A DNA stretch of 64,000 nucleotides from Polynucleobacter meluiroseus (GTDB lineage: Bacteria > Pseudomonadota > Gammaproteobacteria > Burkholderiales > Burkholderiaceae). Under the pieces are notes generated by a model. It ran no database searches, was not told where the DNA came from, and saw nothing but the letters and a program-made list of their open reading frames with translations. Position numbers and translations under genes: made by a program. Every line of letters starts with the position of its first letter. Position 1 is the stretch's first letter. This document shows, piece after piece, positions 2,345-5,148 of the stretch. The stretch spans positions 62,001 through 126,000 of the forward strand of contig NZ_OANS01000004.1 of NCBI RefSeq assembly GCF_900205755.1. Direction: 5' to 3'.

Positions 2345-3709
2345 TTAGTCTGCACCAGTGGTTTGTTTATGGCGTCGCATTCTTGACATTGGGATAAAGC
2401 CCATGAGTAAGGTGCCCACCGCAATAGCTAAAGTCAATTCATTAAAGCCAAGCATGGCTAAGACCCCTACGATCCATAGTGCAATAGCGGAGATGGCCGG
2501 CCATAACAGCATAGTGATAAAGAGTTTTGGTGACGTAATGGCTTGCTTGCGAAAGTTCCAAGCACAGGCAAAACCCGCTAAACCGTAATAGTAAGCCGCC
2601 TGAACTCCAATAATATTGATTGAGGCTGTCATTACTTCCGCAATGCTGCTAGAGCCCAAAGAAAGTAGGAGGGTGATGATGCCAAATGCCGCAATTAAGA
2701 ATGTCGCTAAATAGGGGGTCCGCCAGCTAGCATGCACCTTCGCCCAGCGACTATGAAATACGCCATCGCGTGATTTAGAGAACATGGTGCGCGAGAACTG
2801 CAGCATAGAGGTTTCAATAGTGCCGATAGTAGACAGAATTAAAGCGAGAACTGCAAGGTAACTCCAAGGGCGGGGAATCATTTTCTCAGCCACGACAAAA
2901 ATAATATTGGTACCCGATTGGGTTAGCTCTTCATCGTTGAGGGCCATTAAGGACACACTGGCAAATGCCACGAAGGCTGCCAATATGATGATCATTGCCC
3001 CAACGATACCGAACCCTGGGCCCTTCTCAGGGTTTTTAGTTTCTTCGGTGAGATTGATAGCGACGTCCCAGCCCCAAAAAAAGAACAGGGCAATGACGGC
3101 ACCATTAGAAAAGCTGCTCGGTGTAAACGCCCAAGGAGAAAACTCTGCCCAAGTAAGTTGATGAATCGCGTTTGCACCAAATTTCAGAACAATGCCGACG
3201 CAGCAAATAAAAATGATAGTGAGCTCAATCAAGGTCATCACAATTTGCACTTTAGAGGTCAGGCCAATGCCTCGTACTACCATCAGTGTGATTGCAACCA
3301 GCCAGCCGAGCGCGCACAATGTCACCGCAAATTGAGACTCTGCATACGGAGAGTGAAGAAGCATCAAAGTGGCTGAGCCTGCTGGAATGCTAGCGGATGC
3401 CATAAATAAGGCGGATGCGACTAATATCGTCCAGCCCGCAAAAAACCCGAGCTTGGCATTAAAAATTTCACTTACCCAGGAATACGATGCCCCCGAGTTT
3501 GGGCGGTGCTGATTGAGGTGCATGTAAGCCAGCACGATGCCAATCATTAAAAATCCGCAGTACAGTAAGCTAGCTGGGGCAAGTACGCCCACGGCGGCAA
3601 TAAGGGCAACCAAAGTGGCGGAGATGCTGTAAGAGGGGGCTGAACCAGCAACGCCAATCAGGATAGATTGGACTATGCCCAAGGAGTCCTTTTGCAATTC
3701 TGTTTTCAT
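2345..3709 (-). CDS. APC-superfamily amino acid permease
   Basis: A 454-residue integral membrane protein with about 12 hydrophobic helices. The N-terminal SILIGVAGSAPSYSIS segment and NSGASYSWV further in are typical of the APC amino acid/polyamine/organocation family. Later WGWDVAINLTEETKNPEKG matches the conserved helix 6 to loop region. The role is probably amino acid or amine uptake or exchange across the inner membrane; the substrate is not predictable. It lies about 340 bp upstream of a D-amino-acid-oxidase-like gene on the same strand, with a small plus-strand gene between, so a shared substrate is possible but unproven. Confidence 0.85.
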   Translation of the reverse strand: MKTELQKDSLGIVQSILIGVAGSAPSYSISATLVALIAAVGVLAPASLLYCGFLMIGIVLAYMHLNQHRPNSGASYSWVSEIFNAKLGFFAGWTILVASALFMASASIPAGSATLMLLHSPYAESQFAVTLCALGWLVAITLMVVRGIGLTSKVQIVMTLIELTIIFICCVGIVLKFGANAIHQLTWAEFSPWAFTPSSFSNGAVIALFFFWGWDVAINLTEETKNPEKGPGFGIVGAMIIILAAFVAFASVSLMALNDEELTQSGTNIIFVVAEKMIPRPWSYLAVLALILSTIGTIETSMLQFSRTMFSKSRDGVFHSRWAKVHASWRTPYLATFLIAAFGIITLLLSLGSSSIAEVMTASINIIGVQAAYYYGLAGFACAWNFRKQAITSPKLFITMLLWPAISAIALWIVGVLAMLGFNELTLAIAVGTLLMGFIPMSRMRRHKQTTGAD

Positions 3710-4047: not shown

Positions 4048-5148
4048 TTATTGAAGCCCAAAGAATCGGTTCGCTTCATCGATGATGGCGTCGTATTCTT
4101 TTAGATTGGGTTTATCGGGGCTACCGCCCTCAATAAACGTGCCGCCTAGCACTCCAATATCTCGGGGAGCAGAGTGAGGCAAATGCTTGGGGAAAAGATA
4201 AAAAGACCGTTTTACCTTTTGATTCGCTTCAGTTTCGCCTTCACCAAAATAAACCAAAATCATATAGTCCATATTTTCAGGAACTTGATCCTTGAGCATA
4301 ATCAAATGCCCCTGAACCGGCACTAGAGTCGCATCTCCCGTTAACTCAATTGCGCCGAGTCCACTACAGTTAAAAATAAACTGTTGGCCCAGTTCATCAA
4401 ACGCATGAATTTTCCCAGGAACGATGGGGATGCGGTGCGCATTGATAAAATCATGTAACTCATCCATGAGAAGTGCGGTATTCATAAAAATGCCGTCATC
4501 ATAGACAACCATTTGGCGAGTTGTACCATTGCCAAAGTTCAGCAGTACATCTTTAGCCGGATTGATGACTTTACCAACATAGGATTCAAGTCCAGAATCT
4601 TCTCTACTATTAAAGTAGCTAGGAACTAAGCGAGCTCCTTTTTTAAAATCCTTATTTTTATTTCTGGCTACATCATCATAAAAACGATAGGCTTCAATGC
4701 CAATTTGGTCAATGATGGATTGCATTTCATGATCGTTATCCATGGAGACTGGAGCTAAAAGACCGCCGGCAATATGAGATGTCAATGAATCTATTTTTTC
4801 GGCATAAATGGTGATATTTGAGTAGCCGCGCTTGATTAAATCGTAGGCAGTAAATAAGCCGACCAAGCCAGCGCCAATAATGGCGATGGGACTAGATTGA
4901 TTTAGTAAGTTATTGGTATCTGGTGAATCTATTAATAAAGAATTAACGTATCTTGCAGATCCAGGACCGAGAGTCCAGCCACTTCCGCCATGACCATAGT
5001 TATGTGCGATAACCTTGCTATTTGTTTTCTCAATACTTAAATTGGGCATGCCGTGTTTCATGGGGCGATAACCCAGAATCTTTTCACCCAAATTGGCCTG
5101 TGCAAGCTGTGGTGGAATGATATTTCTGACTTCAATTGCTTCAGTCAT
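4048..5148 (-). CDS. D-amino-acid-oxidase-like FAD enzyme with permuted motif order
   Basis: A 366-residue flavoprotein with all the landmarks of D-amino acid oxidases but in rotated order. The parts normally near the C-terminus come first: GYRPMKHGMPNLSIE (residues 26-40, equivalent to the substrate-carboxylate Arg segment) and HNYGHGGSGWTLG (49-61, the FAD-contacting loop). The Rossmann dinucleotide motif follows at 90-97 (G92, G94, G97), then HIAGGLLAPV (125-134). The protein ends just after DIGVLGGTFIEGG (330-342) and one helix, where a normal family member would run into the RP motif. The likely reaction is FAD-dependent oxidative deamination of a D-amino acid or glycine-like amine to the oxo acid, ammonia and peroxide. 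It has no signal peptide. An AAGG lies about 8 nt before the ATG. The permutation is read from motif order; activity is inferred. Confidence 0.8.
   Translation of the reverse strand: MTEAIEVRNIIPPQLAQANLGEKILGYRPMKHGMPNLSIEKTNSKVIAHNYGHGGSGWTLGPGSARYVNSLLIDSPDTNNLLNQSSPIAIIGAGLVGLFTAYDLIKRGYSNITIYAEKIDSLTSHIAGGLLAPVSMDNDHEMQSIIDQIGIEAYRFYDDVARNKNKDFKKGARLVPSYFNSREDSGLESYVGKVINPAKDVLLNFGNGTTRQMVVYDDGIFMNTALLMDELHDFINAHRIPIVPGKIHAFDELGQQFIFNCSGLGAIELTGDATLVPVQGHLIMLKDQVPENMDYMILVYFGEGETEANQKVKRSFYLFPKHLPHSAPRDIGVLGGTFIEGGSPDKPNLKEYDAIIDEANRFFGLQ

Follow-up and report, generated by a model that had tools for sequence, protein, structure and literature searches.

D-amino-acid oxidase (DAAO) is a textbook flavoenzyme. 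The canonical chain begins with the Rossmann motif that binds FAD and ends with HNYGHGG, which is a DAAO-type signature. Studies of DAAO have assigned roles to three residues (in pig numbering): R283, which is the arginine for the substrate carboxylate, G313, and Tyr228. Another residue, Tyr224, belongs to the active-site lid. The vertebrate DAAOs (pig, 1dao and 1an9; human, 2du8) and human D-aspartate oxidase (6rkf) share with the protein that we describe here the Pfam DAO fold, the GxGxxG motif, and the equivalents of R283, G313, and Tyr228. HNYGHGG is also common to this protein and vertebrate DAAO, while 6rkf has HHYGHGS. Canonical bacterial proteins of the DAAO type, from Streptomyces (L084, L087, and L088), Nocardia (L085), and Vibrio (L086), have the same motifs in chains of similar length (317–385 amino acids), and in all five of them HNYGHGG lies near the C-terminus, behind the FAD motif.

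In the window (the 64,000-nucleotide stretch of DNA from the freshwater bacterium Polynucleobacter meluiroseus that we analyzed), one open reading frame with an ATG start encodes an intact protein (Table 1) in which this order is reversed: HNYGHGG comes before the FAD motif. Because of the reversed order, we class it as a permuted variant and not as an ordinary member of the DAAO family. The glycines of GxGxxG are present (G92, G94, and G97). In our view, the gene probably encodes a single-chain FAD enzyme of the DAAO family, a putative working amine oxidase or dehydrogenase, whose chain is naturally circularly permuted. The strands that close the canonical chain, together with the FAD-binding helix (pig 272 to about 331), would now form the N-terminus, and the new chain ends would lie after pig residue 271. 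Roughly 6–15 residues would join the moved module to the first Rossmann strand (by arithmetic, with the end of the pig helix taken near 331). By alignment, R28, H49, and G55 are the equivalents of pig R283, H307, and G313; RPMKHGMPNLSIE starts at R28, and residues 49–61 are HNYGHGGSGWTLG. The protein begins straight with the moved module, and upstream of the start just six further codons are open.

Table 1. Parts of the rotated gene and its protein, with positions in the window.
Feature	Position	Strand	Basis or remark
Circularly permuted DAAO-like flavoprotein	4048..5148	-	366 aa, stop codon included; no internal stop
Module that is C-terminal in canonical DAAO, residues 28–73 (R28, HNYGHGG at 49–55, FAD-binding helix)	4930..5067	-	Alignment
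Linker from the former C-terminal helix to Rossmann strand 1, residues 74–87	4888..4929	-	Between model helix 62–72 and strand 88–91
IIGAGLVG, FAD dinucleotide-binding motif, residues 90–97	4858..4881	-	Equivalents of pig G7, G9, and G12
Y317, equivalent of pig DAAO Tyr228	4198..4200	-	Alignment of 21 rotated and 7 canonical proteins; profile alignment
Residues 333 to the end: VLGGTFIEGG strand (333–342) and last helix; ends at the equivalent of pig 271	4048..4152	-	Model; stop codon included

Residues 88–285 align with positions 3–205 of pig DAAO (1dao) and residues 12–82 align with positions 267–340. In the native order, the best Pfam match is DAO (84.3 bits, with a cut-off of 27.9), and it is split, with the better stretch running from residue 88 to residue 363 on profile positions 2–297. 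If residues 88–366 are placed before residues 1–87 in silico, then the same model matches with 88.7 bits in a single stretch (2–350 of 353). The first-pass annotation had claimed that the segments that close the C-terminus of this family stand ahead of the FAD Rossmann motif, and both the DAAO alignment and the mending of the Pfam match by rotation bear this out. The rotated letters also match pig DAAO 4–340 in one stretch. The total score against this single protein is nearly unchanged (39.4 bits native, 38.9 bits rotated) because HMMER adds up separate pieces, so the gain is in continuity. More generally, the protein matches vertebrate DAAO and D-aspartate oxidase at near full length once it is rotated, with the change of order at pig 271/272.

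A profile of eight relatives that were rotated back gave single near-full-length stretches for its three best DAAO-family matches (E = 1e-43 to 1e-46, 153–163 bits), and it matched pig DAAO 3–330 in one stretch (E = 1e-43), which is above chance. A native-order profile, which also has eight members (the two profiles differ in membership), matched those same three proteins in two stretches, with 122–132 bits. One alternative is that another FAD family of the superfamily gained an unrelated N-terminal module. Glycine oxidase ThiO, DadA, and the C-domain of MnmC are in the same Pfam superfamily and give weak NCBIfam matches, far below the curated cut-offs; in the native order, ThiO is the best of the NCBIfam matches (57.4 bits against a cut-off of 250.8), and no NCBIfam equivalog scores above its cut-off for the window's protein. 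However, the N-terminal module is not unrelated, as it aligns by itself to DAAO 267–340 and carries HNYGHGG. Also, the rotated profile matches DAAOs and D-aspartate oxidases with E-values of 1e-34 to 1e-46, versus 2e-9 for the best glycine oxidase. So, the gain of a foreign module by a relative such as ThiO or DadA seems very unlikely.

That the order is a rotation, rather than a fusion or a duplication, had been proposed from the first reading of the sequence, and our results agree: each motif is single, the chain stops where the moved module would start, and the rotated letters give a full-length match to Pfam DAO. A second copy of the module (or a partial duplication) was considered and rejected, as the HNYG-type motif is single in the window's ORF and in all 41 of the other ORFs with this motif. 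Among the ORFs with both motifs at the loci that we fetched with these queries (n = 42), 37 are rotated and 5 are canonical. (For counts of motif order and of signals, ORFs that share a C-terminal end were counted once, and the broken L013 was excluded.) In 38 rotated ORFs, 35–44 residues separate the HNYG motif from GxGxxG.

AlphaFold2 gave a model with a pLDDT of 71.4 and a pTM of 0.77 from nine sequences, and a second model with a pLDDT of 78.0 and a pTM of 0.81 from eleven sequences, two of them distant. Residues 86–366 of the second model align to pig DAAO 1–271 (VIA), with a Z-score of 18.6 and an rmsd of 3.1 over 252 residues; the first model gives the same aligned ranges with Z-scores up to 13.0. 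DAAO and D-aspartate oxidase lead the structural matches of the second model, with further superfamily members behind them, from Z = 16.6. (D-amino-acid and D-aspartate oxidases are also the leading matches of the protein among solved structures.) The structural alignment stops at the rotation point and leaves DAAO 272–340 over. In the model, the N-terminus forms strands at residues 20–31, 36–42, and 45–51 and a helix at 62–72. The sequence of this module suits the place of DAAO 272–340, and we infer that the module would fill that place in space. Sequential aligners cover about residues 79–366 and barely reach residues 1–78, and the mean pLDDT of residues 51–80 is near 59 in the second model. 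The Foldseek TM-scores against DAAOs are only 0.50–0.56 by query length, a range that is expected of a sequential aligner faced with a rotation but that does not confirm the full fold.

The model also bears on the two ends of the larger module. The chain had been described as ending directly after VLGGTFIEGG and one helix, and it does: the last predicted helix is at residues 349–362, and the stop is at the equivalent of pig 271. The linker had been placed at about residues 62–87. This holds for about 73–87, but residues 62 to about 72 align with the last helix of DAAO (the alignment reaches pig 330).

To compare active-site residues, we aligned 21 rotated and 7 canonical proteins. The equivalent of pig R283 is arginine in all 28 and hence in every rotated protein. 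The equivalent of G313 is glycine in 27 (including all 21 rotated proteins) and serine in human D-aspartate oxidase. The equivalent of Tyr228 is tyrosine in 15 of the 21 rotated proteins, the window's among them, and in 6 of the 7 canonical ones. Unlike vertebrate DAAO, the window's protein does not keep Tyr224, Tyr55, or Tyr314, and it has a seven-residue insertion at about 322–328. (In the Tyr224 column, which lies in a poorly aligned region, it has lysine, and pig is alone among the 7 canonical rows in having tyrosine.) The six rotated proteins without Tyr228 (L016, L021, L026, L027, L033, and L089) have a GxGWSLSWG variant and also lack the GGT motif. Thus, the rotated family need not share one reaction, and this subgroup may act on a different substrate.

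We propose that the protein adopts the standard DAAO fold and binds FAD between its two modules. R28 and Y317 would hold the substrate carboxylate, FAD would take up a hydride from the alpha-carbon, and hydrolysis of the imine would give a 2-oxo acid and ammonia. As most of the Polynucleobacter copies that we examined lack a signal, they are probably cytosolic and would use oxygen as the acceptor and imported D-amino acids as substrates. In many relatives the signal resembles that of a twin-arginine lipoprotein, and these proteins may work in the periplasm.

These signals were identified with a rule of our own (a twin arginine and then an uncharged stretch), which is not a validated predictor. 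By this rule, 21 of 38 rotated ORFs and none of the 5 canonical ORFs have a twin-arginine-like signal, and 17 of the 21 have a lipobox as well; the window's protein has no such signal. (This count covers loci up to L138, as later loci are census stretches.) The Pfam twin-arginine model scores above its cut-off for L010. Of ten further N-termini, none passes: one reaches 17.8 bits (cut-off 22.7), and nine have no match. We therefore rejected the Pfam model as proof of export, and the export claim rests on our signal rule.

A second possibility is that proteins with the same rotated fold are not oxidases: they could be dehydrogenases that feed cytochrome c or quinone, or enzymes for another amine. 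Some members of the family would fit this, given the export-type signals and the loss of Tyr228 in 6 of 21 rotated proteins. Also, on a plasmid of Kozakia baliensis (L089, 2884–4544), a signal-bearing rotated gene has, by the annotation, a cytochrome c gene 5 bases downstream, whose product matches the Pfam cytochrome c models, and such a neighbor suits a dehydrogenase. But the window's protein has neither a signal nor an adjoining cytochrome gene, it has all three of the R283, G313, and Tyr228 equivalents, and the solved proteins nearest to it are D-aspartate and D-amino-acid oxidases. So, we consider a dehydrogenase or an enzyme for another amine to be possible, but clearly less probable than not.

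The first-pass annotation presented this protein as a single odd enzyme that might have relatives. Relatives do exist, and they make it a member of a widespread rotated family rather than a single case. Seven loci at 80–83% identity (three in genomes titled Polynucleobacter and four in metagenome bins) have the rotated order. So do a relative at 67% identity in a genome of the same genus and another at 54% identity in an alphaproteobacterial bin. Within Polynucleobacter, 14 of 151 genomes have a match, including the window's own genome and one match that is just a fragment. In a sample of the class, the matches in 2 of 274 genomes are the window's own and one 74-residue fragment. In a plasmid collection, 5 of 72,556 records match in rotated order, at 26.5–28.3% identity. 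These are from actinomycetes and alphaproteobacteria (Nonomuraea, in an 11.85-Mb record, and Mesorhizobium, Rhizobium, Bradyrhizobium, and Niveispirillum); the rotated relative in Kozakia was found with other queries. The breakpoint is common to relatives that are 23–28% identical to the window's protein. The search for homologs with the same order, which had been suggested as a check, thus succeeded in Polynucleobacter, in metagenome bins, on plasmids, and in genomes from across the phylum.

For the phylum, we used two overlapping samples, of 398 and 337 genomes. The native-order profile matches 99 of the 398 genomes at E = 1e-6; the match is nearly full length in 20 of these (the window's own genome included) and partial in the other 79, where it falls mostly on the FAD motif. 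With the rotated-back profile, 21 of the 398 genomes have a match (the longest covers positions 1–281 of 324), and in 20 genomes the two matched pieces lie in rotated order. These are the same 20 genomes as above. Because the rotated-back profile was built from rotated proteins, we added two controls. First, a canonical profile (A6, from five proteins) matches 44 of the 398 genomes, and 19 of the 20 rotated genes have the best E-values (to 2e-38), with canonical-order proteins following from 5e-22 down. At E = 1e-10, A6 misses the window's own gene and finds the other 19 rotated genes. Second, a DNA pattern for H(N/H)YGHG matches 28 of 337 Pseudomonadota genomes, at 28 loci. By our own rule, 18 of these are DAAO-type frames (H(N/H)YGHGG and then a FAD motif within 45 residues), 8 are unrelated frames, and 2 lack such a peptide. 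All 18 of the DAAO-type sites are rotated and none are canonical. Canonical DAAO-type proteins are nevertheless present in the phylum (for example, L086 from Vibrio), and the rotated-back query matches Burkholderia glumae plasmids collinearly, so the rotated order is a preponderance in one sample and not an absence of the canonical order. We also read three canonical-order proteins of the wider superfamily (L134 and L138, which match the canonical profile, and L074, which matches the rotated-back profile), and unlike the window's protein, they lack HNYG.

Given this spread, there is next to no chance that the rotated order is an artefact in which a frameshift, an assembly join, or a pseudogene makes one apparent gene from two. 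Broken copies do occur: a Mesorhizobium gene (L013) is split into two overlapping ORFs, and two others (L028 and L037) have an in-frame stop inside the matched stretch. However, the rotated frame is open in the window's own genome and in many independent genomes, and every DAAO-type site in the motif census is rotated. These open frames refute an artefact, and they also refute the sequencing error, making two genes from one, that had been named as a possible refutation of the rotated reading. Separately, we considered whether L013 (Mesorhizobium onobrychidis plasmid pOM4, 5932–6995) might be a split-gene intermediate. We rejected this because the first of its two ORFs stops within the FAD motif, and we read the locus as a gene with a frameshift (or with a sequencing error).

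In viral contigs, we found no close relative of the window's protein. Three loci there match the family profile, and the pattern search finds the same three contigs. In two different IMG/VR contigs (L048, 3895–4983, and L050/L051, 1420–2454), rotated DAAO-like genes adjoin terminase-like genes; the label "terminase-like" is our reading of the ORFs, and the rotated gene in L050 lacks the C-terminal part.

In a tree of 21 rotated-back proteins, 7 canonical proteins, and 1 outgroup, the canonical proteins form one side of a branch with support of 98/99. The ThiO-like outgroup has a branch of length 3.09 and is placed among the rotated proteins, which makes the rotated group need 2 changes. An outgroup branch of this length cannot serve as a root, so our reading is confined to the canonical side of the split. 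The canonical branch and the common breakpoint would fit most simply with a permutation that arose once, long ago. Solved structures from the superfamily show the canonical order, and we therefore take the rotated order to be the derived one. A more speculative idea, which we think is rather unlikely, is that the rotation was a functional adaptation. The moved N-terminus would have made a signal peptide and a lipid anchor possible and thereby given rise to a periplasmic branch of DAAOs that passes electrons from D-amino acids (such as those of peptidoglycan) to the respiratory chain, and the signal-less Polynucleobacter copies would be later returns to the cytosol.

Among the papers listed from a collection of 5.39 million open ones, we found no description of a permuted DAAO, and the passages considered from PMC12502724 and PMC5169069 do not treat one. 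A natural circular permutation thus defines a branch of the DAAO family that is diverse among bacteria, which is a larger finding than the first-pass annotation stated. With its single breakpoint, the permutation is an experiment of nature that bears on which chain connections the DAAO fold needs. Furthermore, canonical-order models split the rotated proteins, so annotation may miss part of the D-amino-acid catabolism of some bacteria. The rotated enzymes also have chain ends at a new place, which could be of use for tagging or for biosensors.

The neighbors of the window's gene include a downstream APC-type amino-acid permease on the same strand (2345–3709), an ABC system with an amino-acid-type binding protein (from 5901; its two membrane proteins were read by eye only), two cupins, and an adenosine-deaminase-like protein. 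We did not find a conserved neighborhood in Polynucleobacter: nine loci (the window, L001–L007, and L010, with ORFs read by eye) have seven different flanks. The genes around the orthologs are different ones, so the gene seems to move on its own, and its context is weak evidence. In more distant relatives, a gene for a thiamine-diphosphate enzyme follows the rotated gene in Nonomuraea and in three rhizobial plasmids (as judged from annotation, ORFs, and Pfam matches of two). The two of these enzymes that we tested are nearest to indolepyruvate/phenylpyruvate decarboxylases, at scores below the cut-off. Such a pairing, of an enzyme that makes 2-oxo acids with one that uses them, would be expected for a D-amino-acid oxidase.

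The recurrent cassette, with the rotated gene and then the thiamine-diphosphate enzyme, spans 4482–8708 in L014, 4363–8690 in L015, and 5872–8691 in L012. The rotated gene is preceded by a BBE-type FAD oxidase in L014 and by an annotated FAD-binding oxidoreductase in L015, and genes annotated as multicopper oxidases are nearby in both. Finally, in L109 (3117–6548, from G002), a Tat-type ortholog is flanked by a GlcD-like FAD oxidase on one side and, on the other, by an acetolactate decarboxylase that scores above its NCBIfam cut-off.
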